From Micromonospora sp. NBC_01796 (GTDB lineage Bacteria; Actinomycetota; Actinomycetes; Mycobacteriales; Micromonosporaceae): DNA of 64,000 nt. Where the stretch lies: assembly GCF_035917455.1 (NCBI RefSeq), contig NZ_CP109078.1:1426001-1490000 (forward strand), in the 5' to 3' direction. Under the pieces are notes generated by a model that did not search any database, had not been told where the DNA came from, and saw only the letters and a program-made list of their open reading frames with translations. Within the stretch, counting starts at the first letter, position 1, and every line of letters starts with the position of its first letter. A program made the translations under genes and the position numbers. Shown here piece by piece: positions 33,430 through 43,028 of this stretch.

Positions 33430-33558
33430 CGCGGCTCCGCGCCACATGATCACTAGGTAACATCCGGTCGTTGCCCTGGGCCCTCCGACTCGTCAACAGC
33501 GGGGAATACAGGCATACGTACGCGCCGTTTCACCTATTTACAAGAAGGAGTGCGCTTA

Positions 33559-34692
33559 ATGGAGTTCGATGAACGGGTCGCCGCGCTCGCCACGAAGGTC
33601 CGGAACCAGCGGGACGCGATTCAGACGGAAGAAGCTGCCAAGAATGCTTTCGTCATGCCGTTCATCTCAATGATCCTCGGTTACGACGTCTTCGATCCAC
33701 TGGAGGTCGTACCGGAGTTCACCGCCGACGTCGGGATCAAGAAAGGAGAGAAGGTCGACTACGCGATCATGCGTGACGGCGAGGTGCAGATCCTCATCGA
33801 GTGCAAGCAGCCGCGCGACTCTCTGAAGATCGAACACGCATCTCAGCTCTATCGATACTTCTCCGTTACGAATGCGCGGATCGCCGTCCTCACCAATGGA
33901 CAGGTCTACCATTTCTACACCGATCTCGATGCCCCCAACAAGATGGATGCCAAGCCCTTCCTCGTGCTCGACCTGGAAGATATCGACGACACCCTCTTGC
34001 CGGAGCTGCGTAAGCTCACGAAGGAAGTTTTCGATCTCGACTCCATCATCAGCGCGGCCGAGGAGTTGAAGTATCTCGGTCAGATCAAGCGTTCGATGGC
34101 GGCGCAGTTCAAGGAGCCTGAGGATGAGTGGGTCAGGTTCTTCGCGACGAAAGTGTATGAAGGTTCATTCACTCAGAAGAGACGCGATCAGTTCAGGTCT
34201 CTCGTTGCCAAGGCTGCCTCACAGTTCGTCAGAGATCAAGTGAACGATCGCCTGAAGGGCGCACTCTACGCAAGCCTTCCCAAGCAGACTACCGAGGCGC
34301 CCTCCGAAGTGCTCGAGAGCGAAGAGGTCGCGCTGAGCGATGTCGCCCGCGACACGGAGGTGGAGACCACGCTCGAAGAACTCACCGGCTACCAGATCAT
34401 CAAAGCGATCGCGTGCAGTGAGGTCAAGCCTCAACGTATTGTGGGCCGCGATGCCAAGTCCTACTTCGCGGTCATCCTCGACGACAACAACCGCAGGCCG
34501 ATCGCGCGACTGCATTTCAACGGCAAGGCCCGAAAATACCTTGGAACGTTCGACGCCAACAAGACGGAGACTCGTCATCTGATCGACTCCATTGACGATA
34601 TCTATCTTCACGCTGAGGCAATACGGAATGCAGTACGGGCGTTCATGGGCGAGGGGGTCACAAGAACCTCCGGAAAGCTTGACGCGCCCTGA
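33559..34692 (+). CDS. solitary type I restriction HsdR N-terminal (PD-(D/E)xK) domain protein
   Basis: 377 residues from ATG 33559, with AAGGAG eight bases upstream; GTG 33550 is in frame. N-terminal helix FDERVAALATKVRNQRDAIQ and TEEAAKNAFVMPFISMILGYDVFDP lead into the nuclease core: Asp in KVDYAIM and the E-x-K in ILIECKQPRD, matching the HSDR_N family. There is no helicase half and no HsdM or HsdS nearby, so it is not a complete type I system. A C-terminal region (ELTGYQIIKAIACSEV, GRDAKSYFAVILDDNNRRPI, RLHFNGKARKYLGTF) is characteristic of this solitary family. Codon use is visibly less GC3 than the rest of the window, suggesting acquisition. Confidence 0.82.
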   Translation: MEFDERVAALATKVRNQRDAIQTEEAAKNAFVMPFISMILGYDVFDPLEVVPEFTADVGIKKGEKVDYAIMRDGEVQILIECKQPRDSLKIEHASQLYRYFSVTNARIAVLTNGQVYHFYTDLDAPNKMDAKPFLVLDLEDIDDTLLPELRKLTKEVFDLDSIISAAEELKYLGQIKRSMAAQFKEPEDEWVRFFATKVYEGSFTQKRRDQFRSLVAKAASQFVRDQVNDRLKGALYASLPKQTTEAPSEVLESEEVALSDVARDTEVETTLEELTGYQIIKAIACSEVKPQRIVGRDAKSYFAVILDDNNRRPIARLHFNGKARKYLGTFDANKTETRHLIDSIDDIYLHAEAIRNAVRAFMGEGVTRTSGKLDAP

Positions 34693-34898
34693 TTCATTGG
34701 CTATTTCATGGTGATCGACGGTGGTTGAGCGGGCAGGTGAGGGCGGCGCGTCGTCGCTCCGGACAGGGCGAGGCTCCCGCTAGGGCAGCAGGCGACGAAG
34801 ACCGACCGCCCTGCTTGGGAGCCACGTTGCTGACCTATCGTGCCAGCATCCCCGCTGACCTAACGATGGAAGTACGGTCGGACGCTCAGACCCGCTTT

Positions 34899-35561
34899 TC
34901 ATTCAGCGCGCACGTCAACGCGTAGCTCCTCGATCACCAACTGAGTGAGTTCGGAGAGTTGGTCTTGGCCGAGGGTAATCCCCTGCAGGTTGACAAGCGC
35001 CGCCTTGAGGTCGTGAAGGCGGTTGCCCCGAAGGTCAGCGCCTTGGAGCTGGCAGGATTCAAGTTCAAGATCGGTCAACTGGCACGACCTGATGACGACT
35101 TTGGGTAGTCGGCAGGAGGACCACGTGCCGTTGGCGAGCGTGCAGTCGCTGAAGGCCATGGCTCCGGCGGCTACGACGCGCTGGAAGGTGGCGTAGTCAA
35201 AGCGGCAGCCGTCGAAGAGGACGTCTTTCAGGCGTACGTCAGTCAGCCGGGTACCGGTGAACCGCGAGCCGGTGAACGCGCAGCGTTCGATGGTGACCCC
35301 GGACAGAGTGGAGCCGGAAAGGTCGGTGCGGGTGATCTCGCTGCCCCAGATGGTTCCGGCTTCCCAGGTGCTCTCGCTGAGGTCTGCGCCGGTGATCCGG
35401 CTGCTACGGATGCTGACGTCTTCCAGTTGCGTGCCGCGCCAGGAGGCACCCTCGATGCTGGCCTCGGTTAGGTCGCTCGTCGGAGCGTAGACGCGATCAA
35501 GATCTTCCGGGTCGAGATCCGGGAGCAAAATCTTCACATCACCGATGGTGGTTGTCCGCAT
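34899..35561 (-). CDS. pentapeptide-repeat protein
   Basis: 220 residues from ATG 35561. From about residue 30 the sequence runs in five-residue A/(D/N)-L-x-x-like steps: TSDLTEASIEGASWRGTQLE, RITGADLSES, RTDLSGSTLSG, RFTGTRLTDVRLKDVLFDGC, and a later QLQGADLRGNRL. This makes a right-handed quadrilateral beta-helix. The C-terminal roughly 30 residues (LGQDQLSELTQLVIEEL) are a helical cap. Pentapeptide proteins include DNA mimics protecting gyrase, but most are unassigned. It lies 75 bases downstream of the RiPP precursor on the same strand, so an immunity role is conceivable but not shown. Confidence 0.85.
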   Translation of the reverse strand: MRTTTIGDVKILLPDLDPEDLDRVYAPTSDLTEASIEGASWRGTQLEDVSIRSSRITGADLSESTWEAGTIWGSEITRTDLSGSTLSGVTIERCAFTGSRFTGTRLTDVRLKDVLFDGCRFDYATFQRVVAAGAMAFSDCTLANGTWSSCRLPKVVIRSCQLTDLELESCQLQGADLRGNRLHDLKAALVNLQGITLGQDQLSELTQLVIEELRVDVRAE

Positions 35562-35636
35562 GCATCCTCAGTCTGCTTAGGAGCGCGAGGTGGCTGCGCC
35601 ACCCCGCGTTCGTTCGCCTACTCCTGGGTCAGGAGG

Positions 35637-35819
35637 TCACTTCTTCTTGTTCCAGTTGTCCCAGCCGGGTCGGCTGTCGAACCCTCCCTTGTTGCTCCAG
35701 GTGGGTCGGTTGTCGAACTTGGCCGCGTCGATCGACGCTATCGTCCGGAGCGGCTCGACGCCAAAACGTGCGAGGTGTTCCGGCGTGGCGTCCACGAGGC
35801 TCGTGAGCGCGTTGGTCAC
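35637..35819 (-). CDS. amcA: multi-cyclophane RiPP precursor peptide (AmcA-like)
   Basis: 60 residues from GTG 35819, with a perfect AGGAGG six bases upstream. Residues 1-33 form the leader (VTNALTSLVDATPEHLARFG, then VEPLRTIASIDAA). The core is two imperfect nine-residue repeats, FDNRPTWSN (35-43) and FDSRPGWDN (47-55), joined by KGG and followed by WNKKK. Each repeat has two aromatic-X-N/S triplets (F35-N37, W41-N43, F47-S49, W53-N55), the motif crosslinked to three-residue cyclophanes by radical SAM enzymes; W56-K58 could be a fifth. It lies 10 bases downstream of the radical SAM gene. Product structure is inferred. Confidence 0.78.
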   Translation of the reverse strand: MTNALTSLVDATPEHLARFGVEPLRTIASIDAAKFDNRPTWSNKGGFDSRPGWDNWNKKK

Positions 35820-35829
35820 GGTGGTCCTC

Positions 35830-36951
35830 CTAGCTTGCGAGGCGGTTTGCGGTGGCGCGGACAAGGGCCTGTCGGGTGGTGCGGCAGTAGTTGGTCTCGC
35901 GGGCGGTGAAGGTGTGGTGCTCGAAGTAGCGGTTGCCGGCCTGGGCGCCTCGGCAGAAGTCGTAGAACATGCAGTGGTCCGCGCATTCGTTGAGCCCGGT
36001 AATGAACTCGGTGACGTACCGTAGGTTGCCGGCCCGGGCCAGGATGTTGCCGATCGGTTCATGGAGAACGTTGCCTGCGGTGAAGTCTCCGTACTGGGGA
36101 TCCTTGATTCCGAGGAGCTCTGGTGACAGGAGGACCACGTGCCCGTCCCAGGAGATGGTGGGGATCGGCTCGTACGGGGCGTCGTTGACGAGCCCGGCGC
36201 GGGTGGCGGTGAGGTAGTCGGCCAGGCGGTCCAGATCGCGGATGGGTAGCGGGTTGCCGTCGATCCGTCGTTGGACAAGCCGGTGCCAGAACCGGTAGGC
36301 GGCATCCTCCGACACCGGTGTACGCCCGGCGCCCTCCTGTTCCTCGATGTTGAAGCCCACAGAACGGCACCCGGGCAGGTAAGTGAAGAAATCGATGAGG
36401 TCGTCCGCCTGGTCGATGGTTTCCGGCGTCACGACGCAGATCACCGAATACGGCAATCCTGCCTCGGCGAGAGCCTGTATCCCTCGGATGGTCCGGGCCG
36501 TTGTTGACTTTCCGGCCCGGTCGAGTCTGTTGCGGTTAAGGGCGCCGGGGCCGTCGATGCTGACACCGATCTCGAACTCGTAGGCAGTGAACAGGTCGCA
36601 CCACCGTGGGTTGACGAGGGTGGCGTTGGTCTGGATCTCGTGGCGTACGTGTCCGGCCTGCCTCAGGTCCTCGAACGGTGCTAGCAGTTCCCGGAAGGTG
36701 TCGAGAGGTGTCGCGGTGGGCTCGCCTCCGTGCCACACCACGCTCACCGGATAGGGGCTGCCCTGCTCCTCGACGGATCGGGCGCACTCTGCGGCGATCG
36801 GGACCGTCATGAGCCTTCGCAATTGTCGGTCGGGCAGGTAGCAATAGGTGCAGTCCAGGTTGCAGAAGCTGGTGGGTTGCAGCACCAGGGTGTGGAACGT
36901 GCGGGCTATGGCCGCCCGCCCATCAGCGGTGATGACACCGATGCCGCTCAT
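35830..36951 (-). CDS. amcB: cyclophane-forming radical SAM/SPASM peptide maturase (AmcB-like)
   Basis: 373 residues from ATG 36951 (ATGA overlap with the zinc-ribbon gene). The SAM [4Fe-4S] motif CNLDCTYC puts cysteines at 30, 34 and 37, then VVWHGGEPTATP and the SAM-binding IGVSIDGPGALNR. A C-terminal SPASM region has the late cysteines ECADHCMFYDFCRGAQAG and ETNYC for auxiliary clusters. Radical SAM/SPASM enzymes of this family abstract a beta-hydrogen from residue X3 and join it to the aromatic side chain of X1. The adjacent precursor with aromatic-X-N repeats is the expected substrate. The exact family label (Amc versus other triceptide maturases) is from memory of family names. Confidence 0.85.
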   Translation of the reverse strand: MSGIGVITADGRAAIARTFHTLVLQPTSFCNLDCTYCYLPDRQLRRLMTVPIAAECARSVEEQGSPYPVSVVWHGGEPTATPLDTFRELLAPFEDLRQAGHVRHEIQTNATLVNPRWCDLFTAYEFEIGVSIDGPGALNRNRLDRAGKSTTARTIRGIQALAEAGLPYSVICVVTPETIDQADDLIDFFTYLPGCRSVGFNIEEQEGAGRTPVSEDAAYRFWHRLVQRRIDGNPLPIRDLDRLADYLTATRAGLVNDAPYEPIPTISWDGHVVLLSPELLGIKDPQYGDFTAGNVLHEPIGNILARAGNLRYVTEFITGLNECADHCMFYDFCRGAQAGNRYFEHHTFTARETNYCRTTRQALVRATANRLAS

Positions 36952-37313
36952 GATCCTGCCTCCCCTTCCTGTATAGGGTCGTCGTGGTCATTTGGTGCCG
37001 GCGGGTGGGGTACGCGTGGCCAGCCAAGGAACCTGTCGAACAGACCGGCGCCGCTTCCCGTCGTGCCGGGGTTGAGTTTGTGCAGATCATCGATGGCGTC
37101 GCAGAGCAAGGTGGCCAGGTAGAGGCACAAGCCGACTCGGCTGCCCTCGTACTCGGCCAGGAGATCCAGTTTTGCCCGCCCGCAGGGCCACGGCTGACCA
37201 CAGGTCCGGCACAGCCAGATCGGACGCAGCGGCAAATGCTTCCTCCGCGCCGTTTCTCCCTGCTTTGAGGTGCGGCGGTGCCCAGGCACAACGTCCGAGT
37301 GGGCTTCGGTCAT
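36948..37313 (-). CDS. small zinc-ribbon-like protein of the RiPP operon
   Basis: 121 residues from ATG 37313. A cysteine cluster WLCRTCGQPWPCGRAK (C-x2-C plus C) in the middle suggests metal binding; it is followed by LLAEYEG, a helix LCLYLATLLCDAIDDLHKL and a conserved ending LFDRFLGW. Similar short proteins (often mis-named flavin reductase) sit beside XRE regulators in many Streptomyces and Micromonospora genomes. Its start overlaps the 55-residue ORF, its end overlaps amcB, so it is translated with the maturase. Function unknown. Confidence 0.72.
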   Translation of the reverse strand: MTEAHSDVVPGHRRTSKQGETARRKHLPLRPIWLCRTCGQPWPCGRAKLDLLAEYEGSRVGLCLYLATLLCDAIDDLHKLNPGTTGSGAGLFDRFLGWPRVPHPPAPNDHDDPIQEGEAGS

Positions 37314-37477
37314 CGGCGTATCTCCTGCCGGGGCTGCCGTTCGAAGTGCTGACGCCACAAGTGGGTGAGCAAAGGCGGTTCGGTTGTCCGCTCCAACTCG
37401 GGCGGGCCGACGTGTCTCGGCGGCTCCGGACGCCACGGTTCGCCCGTCGTCGCGTTGCGCGATGCGTACACCGTCAT
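37310..37477 (-). CDS. short ORF heading the RiPP operon
   Basis: 55 residues from ATG 37477 with GGGAGGCGACC directly upstream. It begins MTVYASRNATTG, continues with a P/E/R-rich stretch and ends LLTHLWRQHFERQPRQEIRR. It has no recognised family. Good ribosome site, ATGA overlap with the zinc-ribbon gene, and strong GC3 in the second half support coding. It may be a small accessory protein; it is not a second precursor because it lacks aromatic-X-N repeats. Confidence 0.6.
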   Translation of the reverse strand: MTVYASRNATTGEPWRPEPPRHVGPPELERTTEPPLLTHLWRQHFERQPRQEIRR

Positions 37478-37901
37478 GGTCGCCTCCCGAAGCAGGTAGG
37501 CGCCGGCAAGCGGTGGGCTCGCCTGGGGAAAGGCAAGCCCACCGCCGCAGGTCGGCAGCTGGGAGCAGGCTGCCGTTCACCCGCCCGCGCAGCCCTCGTG
37601 GCAGTACGCAGACGGGGAGTCACAGGCACACGCATGCGATTCTTCGGGGGCAAGACCGGCCGACGCGTCAAGAGACGCTGCTGGCCTCGAATGGCTACAT
37701 GCTTCATTTCGGCCCTCCCTGGCGGGAACCGTGAGGTGTGGTGGCGGCGCCCGTTCGTCACGAACGGGCGACCGGCTGACTCAGAATCTCCGGGGAGCAT
37801 GACGGTGGGAATGTCTCTGCGGTGCAGTCGCGGTGCACCCACCGGCACGCCACGTGACGCTACGATCGGCACGCTGACCTGTCCCATTGAGAGGACATCC
37901 G
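37478..37901. promoter_or_regulatory. divergent promoter region of the RiPP operon and XRE gene
   Basis: This 424-base gap has no convincing gene. It holds two hairpins: CGGTGGGCT (37511-37519) with AGCCCACCG (37536-37544) in the leader of the minus-strand operon, and a perfect ten-base stem CGCCCGTTCG (37748-37757) / complement (37761-37770) with a three-base loop. The XRE protein encoded to the right is a likely binder of sites here. Confidence 0.5.
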
Positions 37902-39248
37902 ATGGCCACAGTGACCAACTGGACCGGCCAGGACGCCAACGCCCTGCGGCGGGCGTTACGGATGAGCGTCACCGGCTTCGCCGAACACCTGGGCGCGGCC
38001 CGACGCACGGTGGCCAAGTGGAGCAGCCAGGGCAAAAGCATTCAACTACGTGCCGATATGCAGGCCGCGCTCGATACGGTGCTCGCGCGGGCCGCCCCCG
38101 ACGTTCTGGAACGCTTCGAAGCCCTGCGGGAACAAGGCACCTGTAGTGCACTTGCCGCTACCACCAGACCACCGGCCGCCGGAGACGCCGATACTGGCAG
38201 GGACAAACCTGGCTTCGAGTCGGACGGTGACGTGCAGCGTAGACAGTTCCTGCAGGGCGCGACGGTCGGCGGCATGGCTACCCTGGCCGGCGTCACGCCA
38301 CTACTCGACGCGCTGGTCTCAGCGCCGGCGACTCGGACTGCCGAGCCGGTTGCCCTGCCCCTTCGAGACTTCGCCCGCGACATTGCCACCGCGAAGGCCG
38401 CCTATCAGGCATGCCGGTACGAGCAGGTTCTCGGTGGCCTCGCGACCCTGCTACCCGCTCTGGCGCCGACCCGGGAGGAAGCCGAGGGCGACCAGCGGAC
38501 CCGAATCGAGGCCCTGGCCAGCGACCTGTACCACGTCGTCGGCAGCGTGCTACTCAAGATCGGGGACCGGGGCATGGCCCTGGTGGCGGCCGAGAGAAGC
38601 ACCCACGCGGGCGCGGCCAGCCAGGACCCGGTAGCAATCGCCTGCAGCGCACGGATCATGACCCACGCCCTGATGAGCAACGGCCACACCAGGCAGGCGA
38701 GGAACCTGGCCGAGAACGCGGCCAGTGCCCTCGAACGGAACACCCGGCTCGGGTCCACCGACCAGGTGGCCGTCTACGGCGCCCTCCTGCTCCGCGGCGC
38801 AATCGCCGCCGCGCGCAGCGGCGATCGGGACAGCGCGCAAGCCATGATCGACGAGGCCACCCGTGCCGCCGCGCGGCTCGGCTACGACGGCAACGACCGG
38901 TGGACCGGCTTCGGCACCACGAACGTCCTGCTCCACCAGGTCAACATCGCGCTGACCCTGGGGGACGCCGGCACGGCCGTCACCCTCGCCCGCCAGGTGC
39001 CACTGGACAAAATCCGCCTCGCCGAACGCAGAGCCTCGCTGTTCGTCGACGTGGCCCGCGCCTACACCCAGTGGGGACGTTACGAGCACGGCCTGAACGC
39101 GTTGCGCATCGCGTACGACGTGGCGCCCGAGGAGCTCCGGTGCCGGCCAGCGGTCCAGCGCATCGCTGGTGACCTCGCGGCCCTCAGCCGGGGTCACCTC
39201 CGCACCGAGGTTGTCGAGTTCGCTCACCGCGTTGGGATCCCGGTATGA
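37902..39248 (+). CDS. XRE-family regulator with TPR domain
   Basis: 448 residues from ATG 37902. The N-terminal HTH reads ALRRALRMSVTGFAEHLGAARRTVAKWSSQG (residues about 12-45). An internal RRQFLQGATVGGMATLAG near residue 110 looks like a twin-arginine motif but lies mid-protein, as often seen in this family, and probably is not exported. The rest is helical with TPR-like repeats (ARSGDRDSAQAMIDEATRAA, YGALLLRGAIAAARSG). These regulators bind a peptide or small ligand through the TPR part. Divergent from the RiPP operon and overlapping the flavoprotein gene, so it probably regulates both. Confidence 0.85.
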   Translation: MATVTNWTGQDANALRRALRMSVTGFAEHLGAARRTVAKWSSQGKSIQLRADMQAALDTVLARAAPDVLERFEALREQGTCSALAATTRPPAAGDADTGRDKPGFESDGDVQRRQFLQGATVGGMATLAGVTPLLDALVSAPATRTAEPVALPLRDFARDIATAKAAYQACRYEQVLGGLATLLPALAPTREEAEGDQRTRIEALASDLYHVVGSVLLKIGDRGMALVAAERSTHAGAASQDPVAIACSARIMTHALMSNGHTRQARNLAENAASALERNTRLGSTDQVAVYGALLLRGAIAAARSGDRDSAQAMIDEATRAAARLGYDGNDRWTGFGTTNVLLHQVNIALTLGDAGTAVTLARQVPLDKIRLAERRASLFVDVARAYTQWGRYEHGLNALRIAYDVAPEELRCRPAVQRIAGDLAALSRGHLRTEVVEFAHRVGIPV

Positions 39249-40222: not shown

Positions 40223-41530
40223 ATGTGCCGCAGGATTCGATCGAACGGGGTGGAGATGGGCAACGTCACGCGGGGCTGGGCGATGATCACGGCCCTGGTC
40301 ATGGTCACTCCACTGGCCCTGGCGGGGTGCGGCGGCAGCGGCGACAAGCCGGAGTTCGTGGGTGCCTCCACCCAGCCCACCGCCAGCCCCACACCGCCGG
40401 CCGAGCCGGTCGTGCTCGCCATCACCCCGGAGGCCGGGGCGGCCAAGCAGCCGGTGAGCACCGAGATCGGCACCACGATCACCGGCGGGAAGATCACCGA
40501 CGTGACGCTCACCACCGAGGGCGTGAAGGTCGCCGGCAGCCTGCGCGAGGACAGCTCGTCCTGGGTCCCGGCCAACCCCCTGAAGTACGGCAAGAAGTAC
40601 GACGCCACCGTCACCGCCACCGGCACCACCGGCCAGGTGGAGACGAAGACCACCTCCTTCACCACGATGACCAAGCCGGGTTCCCAGATCGGCTCCGGGC
40701 TGTACCTGTTCGACGACAAGGTGTACGGCGTCGCGATGCCGGTGGTGGTCGAGTTCTCCCCGGGCATCCCGAAGAAGGACCGGGCGGCGGTGCAGCGGCG
40801 GATGTTCGTCGACACCGTGCCGGCTCAGCCGGGTGTGTGGCACTGGGTGGACAACGGCACCCAGGCGTACTACCGGGCGCCGGAGTACTGGCAGCCGGAG
40901 ACGAAGCTGACCGTACGGATCGCGCTGGAGGGCATCCCGCTGAGCAACGGCCGGTACGGCAACGTCGACCGGAAGGCCACCACGAAGATCGGCAACAGGT
41001 TCGAGATGAAGGTCGACAACGCGACCAAGCAGATGACGGTCTTCGAGAACGGCAACCTGGTCCGCACCATGCCGGTCAGCCTGGGCAAGAAGGCCACGCC
41101 CTCGTCCAGCGGGACCATGGTGGTGATGGAGAAGAAGGAAAGCACCGTCTTCGACACCAGCGACGACCCGAACCCGGCCAACCGCTACGTCACCGACATC
41201 GACTTCGCCCAGCGCCTCACCTGGGGTGGCGAGTACATCCACGCCGCACCCTGGTCGGTGGCTCAGCAGGGGCGTACGAACGTGTCGCACGGGTGCGTGA
41301 ACCTGTCGACGCCGAACGCCCGGTGGCTGTTCGAGAAGACGAAGACCGGTGACCCGGTGACGGTCAAGGGGACCGAGCGCAAGCTCGAGGACGGCAACGG
41401 CTGGACCGCGTGGAACCTGACCTGGGCCGAGTTCATCAAGGGCAGCGCGTTGCCCGTACCCGATGCTCTTGCCGCCGGTAACGCGCCGGCCGGTCCGACG
41501 CCGAGCACCGGGGCCACCCCCGGCGCCTGA
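40223..41530 (+). CDS. lipoprotein L,D-transpeptidase (Ig-like and YkuD domains), first paralogue
   Basis: 435 residues from ATG 40223; ATG 40256 would give a more compact signal. Lipoprotein signal peptide ends in LALAGC. Residues about 55-140 and 140-230 are two beta-sandwich (bacterial Ig-like) domains (AITPEAGAAKQPVSTEIG, then AMPVVVEFSPGIPKKDR). The C-terminal YkuD domain carries IHAAPWSVAQQGRTNVSHGC, catalytic Cys 358 in SHGCVN. Makes 3-3 peptidoglycan crosslinks from outside the membrane, as LdtMt2/LppS-like enzymes do. A second copy follows. Confidence 0.93.
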   Translation: MCRRIRSNGVEMGNVTRGWAMITALVMVTPLALAGCGGSGDKPEFVGASTQPTASPTPPAEPVVLAITPEAGAAKQPVSTEIGTTITGGKITDVTLTTEGVKVAGSLREDSSSWVPANPLKYGKKYDATVTATGTTGQVETKTTSFTTMTKPGSQIGSGLYLFDDKVYGVAMPVVVEFSPGIPKKDRAAVQRRMFVDTVPAQPGVWHWVDNGTQAYYRAPEYWQPETKLTVRIALEGIPLSNGRYGNVDRKATTKIGNRFEMKVDNATKQMTVFENGNLVRTMPVSLGKKATPSSSGTMVVMEKKESTVFDTSDDPNPANRYVTDIDFAQRLTWGGEYIHAAPWSVAQQGRTNVSHGCVNLSTPNARWLFEKTKTGDPVTVKGTERKLEDGNGWTAWNLTWAEFIKGSALPVPDALAAGNAPAGPTPSTGATPGA

Positions 41531-41726
41531 CCGGCGCCGACGTCCGCTCCCCCGGCATTGCGCGGTCGGGGCCGGTTCGACTGGCCGCGATTGCACGGAC
41601 GAACCCGGCAATATACCGACAACTTACCCCCGCTGTCTGCGTTTCTCGCCACGTGGTGAAACCAAAATTTGCCCGGGAGCGTCTTTGGGAGAGGATGGTC
41701 GTGGGGACCAGGACTGTGAGGGGCTA

Positions 41727-43028
41727 ATGCGCGCGAGTCGAGACCAGTTGATGGGGCAGACCGCGAAGCGGCGTCGGGCAACCGTGCGCACGCTCGTGAC
41801 GGTCGTGCTGACCGGGGCGCTCGCGCTCACCGCCGCAGGCTGCAGCAGCGGGGGCGGTAACTCACCGGCCTGGCAGGGCGGCAACAAGGCCCCGGACGGC
41901 CCGAAGGCCAGCGCGACGATCACCAGCCCGGCGGCCGACGCGAAGGACGTACCCGCGTCGACCGAGATCGCCTTCAGCAGCAAGGACGCGACCACCACGA
42001 CGTTCGACCTGAAGGACGGCACCGGCAAGGCCGTCGAGGGCAAGGCCAGCGCCGACGGTACGACCTGGTTGCCCAACGGCGCCCTCGAATACGGTACGAC
42101 GTACACGGCGACCGTGACGGCGACCGGCGACGACGGCAAGCCGGCGACCACGACCAGCAACTTCACCACGATGGCCAAGCCGGAGAACCAGGTACGGGTG
42201 ACCAGCTTCCTCGGTGACGGCGCCGTGGTCGGCGTGGGTATGCCGTTGATCGTGAAGTTCTCCCGTGCCATCCCGCAGGACTTCCGGGACGACATCCAGC
42301 GGCGGATGACCGTGACCGCCACCCCGGCGCAGGAAGGCGCCTGGCGCTGGATCAGCCCGACCGAGGTGCACTACCGGCCGAAGACCTACTGGAAGGCCAA
42401 CACCGAACTGGACTACAAGATCCAGGCCGGTGGGCTGCCCCTGGGTGACGGCTGGTACGGCCGGGCGGACCTCACCATCGACGCCAAAGTCGGTTCCTCG
42501 GTGGTGATGACGGTCGACAACAAGACCAAGAAGATGACCGTCACCAAGGACGGCGCGGTGATCCGTACGATCCCGATCAGCCTCGGCGCCCCGGTCACCC
42601 CCTCCTCCAGCGGCACGATGATCGTGATCGAGAAGCTGAAGAAGACGGTCTTCGACACCATGGACGACCCGATCCCGACCAACCGCTACCGCACCGACAT
42701 CGAGTACGCCCAGCGCCTTACCTGGGGTGGCGAGTTCATCCACGCCGCGCCCTGGTCGGTGGCTCAGCAGGGTCGTACGAACGTGTCGCACGGCTGCGTG
42801 AACATGTCCCAGGCGAACGCGCAGTGGCTCTTCGACCAGACCAAGATCGGTGACCCGATCACGGTCAAGGGCACCGAGCGCAAGCTGGAGAACGGCAACG
42901 GCTGGACCGACTGGAACATGAGCTGGGACGAGTTCATCAAGGGCAGCGCCATCCCGTACGAGGCGCCGGCCGCTCCCGCCCCCAGCGACGTGCCGTCCGC
43001 CGACCCGAGCGTCACCCCCACCACCTGA
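41727..43028 (+). CDS. lipoprotein L,D-transpeptidase, second paralogue
   Basis: 433 residues from ATG 41727; an in-frame TTG/ATG further on (MGQTAKRRR) could also start it. Signal peptide VVLTGALALTAAGC with lipobox. Same Ig-Ig-YkuD layout as the preceding gene, with catalytic Cys 357 in SHGCVNMS. The two share long identical stretches around the active site (HAAPWSVAQQGRTNVSHGC) and differ in the Ig domains, so they are an old tandem duplication with a conserved active site. Confidence 0.93.
   Translation: MRASRDQLMGQTAKRRRATVRTLVTVVLTGALALTAAGCSSGGGNSPAWQGGNKAPDGPKASATITSPAADAKDVPASTEIAFSSKDATTTTFDLKDGTGKAVEGKASADGTTWLPNGALEYGTTYTATVTATGDDGKPATTTSNFTTMAKPENQVRVTSFLGDGAVVGVGMPLIVKFSRAIPQDFRDDIQRRMTVTATPAQEGAWRWISPTEVHYRPKTYWKANTELDYKIQAGGLPLGDGWYGRADLTIDAKVGSSVVMTVDNKTKKMTVTKDGAVIRTIPISLGAPVTPSSSGTMIVIEKLKKTVFDTMDDPIPTNRYRTDIEYAQRLTWGGEFIHAAPWSVAQQGRTNVSHGCVNMSQANAQWLFDQTKIGDPITVKGTERKLENGNGWTDWNMSWDEFIKGSAIPYEAPAAPAPSDVPSADPSVTPTT

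Follow-up and report, generated by a model that had tools for sequence, protein, structure and literature searches.

What does a bacterium need, beyond a precursor and a crosslinking enzyme, to make and survive a cyclophane peptide? A short locus of Micromonospora sp. NBC_01796 raises this question. We analysed a stretch of 64,000 nucleotides (contig NZ_CP109078.1, positions 1,426,001 to 1,490,000; hereafter the window), in which amcB, a gene for a radical S-adenosylmethionine (SAM)/SPASM maturase, is followed by a small precursor gene, amcA, and then by a gene for a pentapeptide-repeat protein (PRP). The AmcA and AmcB families have already been modelled by NCBI, and this kind of locus is already known. 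What is new, and worth a closer look, is that amcB, amcA, and the PRP gene form a three-gene unit with a lopsided decay in relatives. We favor the reading that the operon makes and survives a polycyclophane ribosomally synthesized and posttranslationally modified peptide (RiPP), with the PRP gene as its immunity gene and DNA gyrase as the likeliest target.

The precursor AmcA and its maturase

The original prediction for this DNA described a 60-residue gene with an AGGAGG motif, lying ten bases past a radical SAM/SPASM gene and hidden in an out-of-frame open reading frame. All of this can be read directly: the gap occupies positions 35820-35829, the AGGAGG of amcA overlaps the amcB stop codon, and in the list of open reading frames amcA shows up solely as the end of a 222-codon frame (35637-36305) that crosses amcB. 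The family check that had been proposed placed both proteins over curated NCBI cut-offs, with 62.2 bits for AmcA against NF041721 (AmcA_1; cut-off, 40) and 547.6 bits for AmcB against NF041718 (cut-off, 425); the next-best family for AmcB, GrrM/OscB, scored 256.7 bits, under its cut-off of 310. With such scores the precursor is not a chance frame, and because both partners exceed their cut-offs, the cyclophane reading stands: the locus very probably encodes a cyclophane RiPP, with crosslinking expected from what is known of the family.

In AmcB, the radical SAM motif CX3CX2C lies at residues 30/34/37 and the C-terminal part carries the SPASM cysteines 323/327/333/356; eight cysteines (30, 34, 37, 118, 323, 327, 333, and 356) were kept in all 67 aligned homologues. 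The AmcA core, after the leader, reads FDNRPTWSN-KGG-FDSRPGWDN-WNKKK and holds, as originally described, two aromatic-x-N/S triplets per repeat, making four W/F-x-[N/S] triplets and a possible fifth (W-N-K). Conservation of these repeats in relatives had also been suggested as a check. Among 25 two-repeat precursors, that is, the window's own and those of 24 Micromonosporaceae loci, F-x-[N/S] and W-x-N were present in both repeats of every one, with variation (D, S, G, A, or E) at the central position of the first W-x-N. A variable middle residue between constant F, N/S, W, and N is as expected for i to i+2 rings, and the portion of PMC11002830 on related enzymes describes crosslinking of F/W to N/D/S at i to i+2.

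The two-repeat core is common across Micromonosporaceae, and amcA sits in the same place in relatives, usually with an ATG start. Outside the 25, Streptomycetaceae precursors carry two or more repeats, and those of loci L023 and L120 carry one. The claim that the exact sequence is undescribed held for the core itself, which with its WSN and KGG linker occurred in 0 of the 24 other two-repeat precursors, but not for the locus, whose kind is not new.

Two other ideas were rejected. For spread on plasmids, an AmcB search of 72,556 plasmid records yielded six records, all below 60% identity and all annotated as GrrM/OscB. For an anti-phage role, PADLOC did not match the PRP, and its weak matches of AmcB to viperin we take as a reflection of the shared radical SAM fold.

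Linkage of the PRP gene and its persistence after loss of amcB

The PRP gene, which begins 75 bases downstream of amcA, was absent from the original prediction, as were two small genes within 36948-37477. When flanking genes of at least 80 codons were clustered for 33 loci, with most of these genes judged by eye and few by Pfam, only the AmcB (33/33) and PRP (31/33) clusters were near universal; the next, a regulator cluster, reached 23/33. Both AmcB and PRP were found by tblastn in 35 of 47 loci, and the PRP was on the strand of AmcB in all 35. The PRP was also present in all seven Streptomycetaceae loci (L029-L035). When 394 genomes from across the class were searched with the AmcA_1 model, nine matches were obtained, including the window's own. 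Eight had a PRP within 1.5 kb, namely, all seven over the cut-off and one below it; the ninth (L121; 24.1 bits, below the cut-off) had neither AmcB nor PRP. By comparison, of the 22 loci examined for a second AmcB type, which accompanies an AmcA_3a precursor, none had a PRP inside the same 1.5-kb distance.

The same separation was seen in 298 genomes of the order, where every intact amcB of the window's type (at least 540 bits) had a PRP (8/8), while for 48 lower-scoring AmcB matches over the cut-off (438 to 526 bits), inspection by eye showed the surrounding contig to be free of PRP matches for hundreds of kilobases. Of these 48, the one in genome G235 lies at a contig end, and AmcA_1 and a PRP lie at another contig end of that genome. 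For 26 further over-cut-off AmcB matches without an extracted locus, the type was taken from bit scores. Moreover, AmcB and PRP distances correlated across 30 loci (r, 0.97) and across the 21 Micromonospora-type loci (r, 0.887).

The window's genome (8.56 Mb, one contig) holds a second AmcB of its own (524.7 bits; G000:C1:3216614-3217678, or L048:9573-10706). It is directly followed by an AmcA_3a precursor of 79 residues (112.6 bits), with the core ...NHFENIPTFYNWNNRPR, and the pair is flanked by purM on one side and a DUF3073-like gene on the other (both named by eye); no PRP was found within about 9 kb of it. Judged by bit score, the lower-scoring AmcB type occurred in all 43 listed genomes of genus g2. 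In five of the seven Streptomycetaceae loci, a protein of about 240 to 260 residues directly follows the PRP (including L030:7429-8205, L033:8126-8854, and L034:8074-8790); three of the five were searched and had no Pfam or NCBIfam match.

Within the 298 genomes, with the best ten candidates per genome scored, 24 PRP matches were found at an E value of 1e-60 or better. Of these, 8 had an intact amcB as a neighbor, 3 had a truncated one, and 13 had none. PRPs without an intact amcB outnumbered the reverse by 16 to 0 (sign test, 3e-5), or by 14 to 0 (1.2e-4) without L092 and L093, two divergent PRPs (37 to 38% identity) among the 13 that may never have been part of such a locus. In 7 of the 16 places, an AmcA or its remnant adjoined the PRP (L078, L079, L081, L084, L086, L088, and L090), and weaker AmcA traces were seen in L091 and L080; L078 has residues 1 to 43 of AmcB fused directly to an AmcA core. 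On the PRP tree, which was built without L016, L025, and identical duplicates, the amcB-broken label changed 9 times (8 to 10 over bootstraps, with at least 4 changes forced by starred branches), a count that leaves out L092, L093, L095, L022, and L028 and rises to 12 if L092, L093, and L095 are taken as lacking amcB. These changes point to several events, probably losses of amcB or gains of a PRP on its own.

L090 has a complete amcA with a ribosome site (L090:4873-5052) beside its PRP and no AmcB in the 10.5 kb that the locus spans. A single AmcB passes the cut-off in its genome (G133); this enzyme (L056) is of the AmcA_3a type and might modify the L090 AmcA in trans.

Proposed function and its rivals

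The PRP exceeded the Pfam cut-offs of PF00805, PF13599, and PF13576. Its structure model (predicted local distance difference test, 94.7; predicted template modeling score, 0.90) is a right-handed quadrilateral beta-helix that matched EfsQnr (2w7z; template modeling [TM] score, 0.81/0.85) and PENT (6fls; 0.81/0.82), with lower TM scores for AlbG, MfpA, and QnrB1. A sequence profile likewise placed EfsQnr 2w7z first, nearly over the full length (E, 3e-24). A C-terminal helix (199-213) stands in the monomer model at the position of the helix given in the relevant part of PMC8145042 as the dimer element of MfpA, EfsQnr, AlbG, and PENT. With EfsQnr and PENT the PRP thus has a full-length fold match and a C-terminal capping helix in common, at 18% identity.

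We propose that AmcB would bind the AmcA leader and join each F/W to the beta-carbon of the residue two positions on (N or S), so that the product would carry four three-residue rings and perhaps a fifth; its release would fall to a protease and an exporter that are not linked. From the gene pattern and the fold, the polycyclophane product would be toxic to its maker, and the PRP would be a self-immunity protein, a Qnr/EfsQnr-like DNA mimic that shields the producer, with DNA gyrase as its most likely site of action. That the PRP is a self-protection gene seems reasonably probable on these grounds; that the target is gyrase or topoisomerase IV is put forward more tentatively. If the PRP does act on gyrase, gyrase becomes the likeliest target of the product. 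AlbG, McbG, and QnrB1 protect gyrase specifically against their cognate poisons, according to the pertinent part of PMC7897471, and the section of PMC12406682 on speirobactin relates that the PRP of its cluster was taken as self-resistance and that the target proved to be gyrase. These precedents make gyrase the first target to test. It is conceivable, if somewhat doubtful, that AmcA_1 products in general are polycyclophane gyrase poisons, each with its own PRP immunity, and that orphan PRPs provide resistance in Micromonosporaceae that have lost, or compete with, a producer.

Several observations weigh against this reading. Pentapeptide folds also serve other roles, and the literature matches listed gave neither an activity nor a target for products of the AmcA class. 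As the original prediction had noted, no peptidase or exporter was seen next to the genes in the window, nor was there one as a shared flanking family in the 33 loci; no exporter is linked. The PRP was far under the NCBIfam cut-offs for Qnr (39.3 of 240 bits) and MfpA (34.3 of 360 bits), and its beta-helix part has no long loop of the QnrB1/AlbG type (model DSSP, by eye), while protection by QnrB1 and AlbG needs long loops as described in the portion of PMC7897471 concerned with them. The PRP therefore works at most like a gyrase PRP and is not filed as a Qnr. PENT likewise lacks long loops, and where PMC8145042 treats it, its function is given as unproven. In L117 and L119 the PRP is adjacent to the locus yet on the opposite strand, and the AmcB is closer to the second type, which indicates that the PRP goes with the AmcA_1 precursor and not strictly with one AmcB type.

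The decay pattern is also less than uniform. Selection seems to have preserved the PRPs of broken loci, judged from sequence: the ratios of nonsynonymous to synonymous substitution rates for 16 of them (13 from the order sample plus L024, L042, and L047), each compared with its closest counterpart among the PRPs of 21 intact loci, were 0.15 to 0.46, compared with a median of 0.25 for intact pairs, as pairwise values that average both branches and cannot date the losses. Among loci found via a broken amcB, however, the PRP was gone in 6 of 11 and intact in 5, or gone in 7 of 12 with a remnant in L014; some lineages thus keep the PRP, and others lose the whole set. The PRP frequently, but not always, survives the loss of amcB. 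In L094 the PRP is broken and amcB is absent, and in L016, from a draft genome, a frameshifted PRP follows an intact amcA and amcB. Loci with an intact amcB had an intact PRP in 30 of 31, with a frameshift in one, and PRP loss still differed between broken and intact loci (Fisher test, 5e-4; 2e-4 with the L014 remnant). The classes in this count were assigned by hand; L022, L025, and L028 (draft genomes with a frame-split or N-run AmcB) were left out, the broken loci L026 and L112 share one genome, and the class-wide loci L113-L120 stand outside it. Among the latter, the AmcB of L118 is split between frames by tblastn and that of L119 was found only from residue 104. The L014 remnant (L014:10520-10679) is a second amcB copy and lies some 3.4 kb downstream of a locus in which amcB, amcA, and the PRP gene are all intact.

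Could the locus be an ordinary AmcA/AmcB pair and the PRP a mere neighbor with a role of its own, e.g., in regulation or topoisomerase modulation? PRPs are common, with a profile match at 1e-15 in 108 of the 298 genomes, and the persistence of the gene in 16 places without an intact amcB would suit a neighbor of this kind. Yet such a neighbor fits poorly with linkage in 8 of 9 AmcA_1 matches against 0 of 22 loci of the other type, with an adjacency that survives the strand change in L117 and L119, or with the lack of any PRP-less intact amcB of the window's type among the 8 of the order sample. Losses of 6/11 (or 7/12) with a broken amcB versus a single broken PRP among 31 intact loci point the same way, and we regard the neighbor explanation as unlikely.

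Self-protection could also work without gyrase, with the PRP sequestering a basic, aromatic peptide or shielding some other DNA-binding target. The PRP is net acidic (33 D/E versus 22 K/R), the WNKKK tail of the core is basic, and the gene pattern would be the same as for immunity; the mode documented for QnrB1, AlbG, and McbG, as far as the cited portion of PMC7897471 goes, is instead poison-specific rescue of gyrase, and we consider sequestration less likely still. Least probable, in our view, is a peptide that is no toxin at all, the AmcA product and the PRP acting together in the cell, e.g., as a conditional modulator of DNA topology. That no exporter or protease was seen as a shared flanking family in the 33 loci, and that L090 has a complete amcA beside the PRP without amcB, would fit such a pair. 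A two-part effector, though, should lose both parts, whereas the PRP is kept while amcB is lost and the reverse is rare, which is the pattern of an immunity gene. Immunity to a polycyclophane RiPP, with gyrase as the candidate target, accordingly remains the reading that we carry forward.

Surrounding genes and comparison with known systems

The features of the locus are collected in Table 1. On the minus strand the order is P0004, P0003, amcB, amcA, and the PRP gene, with 4-base overlaps between P0004 and P0003 and between P0003 and amcB. Within 34800-37950, no sigma-70-type promoter was matched, and terminator-like matches were near chance (3, against a shuffled mean of 1.6 with a standard deviation of 1.5). 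A relative of the divergent regulator sits divergently upstream in many Micromonosporaceae loci.

Table 1. Genes of the amc locus and the divergent regulator, in window coordinates
Feature	Position	Strand	Length	Remarks
PRP gene, proposed immunity	34899..35561	-	220 aa	Pfam, structure model, linkage
amcA, precursor	35637..35819	-	60 aa	GTG start; NF041721, 62.2 bits; kept in relatives
amcB, radical SAM/SPASM maturase	35830..36951	-	373 aa	NF041718, 547.6 bits
P0003, CxxC-containing protein	36948..37313	-	121 aa	no family over cut-off
P0004	37310..37477	-	55 aa	NF041725 "AmcA_5", 76.6 bits (cut-off, 40)
Helix-turn-helix/tetratricopeptide repeat-like regulator, divergent	37902..39248	+		NsdA-like, 60.1 of 75 bits, below cut-off

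P0003 lies upstream of amcB in many Micromonosporaceae loci and elsewhere occurs also away from amcB. P0004, despite its family name, was rejected as a second precursor: it has no aromatic-x-N/D/S repeat, it lies upstream of amcB, and it has copies away from amcB. NF041725 had 29 matches in the 298 genomes, 12 of them beside amcB or a remnant by reading of the places, and a possible further match beside amcB lies on a broken contig of G112. NF041725 "AmcA_5" is probably a mislabeled neighbor and not an AmcB precursor. The P0004/P0003 pair was seen without amcB in L105-L108 and L110, and P0004 alone in L109.

Upstream of P0004, a cysteine-rich frame (37577-37780, minus strand) that ends in HACACDSPSAYCHEGCAGG was rejected as a peptide gene. 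It reads ..AYCHEGCAGG and has no convincing start, with a third-position GC of 0.64 in the window copy. Seven relatives were read, and those with a match keep no more than a short part of it, mostly without paired cysteines; a motif search for the frame returned only the window's own copy. The stretch is possibly a conserved DNA element, not a gene.

Farther out, positions 33550-34692 encode an HSDR_N-type nuclease-like protein of lower GC (about 0.55 to 0.59). Micromonospora sp. KC213 (L028) encodes a protein 94.6% identical to it at a distance of about 4 kb from its own amc locus, where AmcB is 74% identical, and this difference suggests recent horizontal transfer. Two tandem paralogous secreted proteins, L,D-transpeptidase-like by eye, are encoded at 40223-43028.

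The original work on AmcA/AmcB reportedly came from the Morinaka group; a text search on these names returned no relevant paper. None of the matches listed linked cyclophane RiPPs with PRPs, in a search that left most subscription literature outside, and novelty is thus not proven. Darobactin and dynobactin target BamA, as stated in the part of PMC12406682 that deals with them, and if the gyrase reading is true, BamA would no longer be the sole antibacterial target of cyclophane RiPPs but one of two, and a PRP beside a precursor would be a marker for finding more such peptides. If it is not true, the PRP pattern still marks a third conserved component of AmcA_1 operons.

Compared with the systems behind NF041721 and NF041718, the window's locus agrees in its scores over the cut-offs, in a precursor directly after the maturase, and in repeated F/W-x-[N/S]; it differs in the WSN of repeat 1, in the KGG linker, and in its PRP, which is outside both family models. 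With the XncB, OscB/GrrM, and MscB triceptide systems it shares a SPASM radical SAM enzyme for aromatic-x-N/D/S triplets, as these are portrayed in the relevant portion of PMC11002830, whereas the window AmcB is under the GrrM/OscB cut-off and its precursor belongs to another family.

Microcin B17 is an azole-type RiPP. It and its PRP McbG, together with albicidin/AlbG and speirobactin and its PRP, are the closest functional parallels that we propose. They differ from the amc locus in that their products are azole-type RiPP and non-ribosomal ones, whereas here a cyclophane RiPP is predicted, gyrase action is putative, and the PRP has no long AlbG-type loop. What these systems, so far as the sources' accounts of them extend, would have in common with the amc locus is a producer's PRP that guards it from its own (modified) peptide and is built on a Qnr-like fold.

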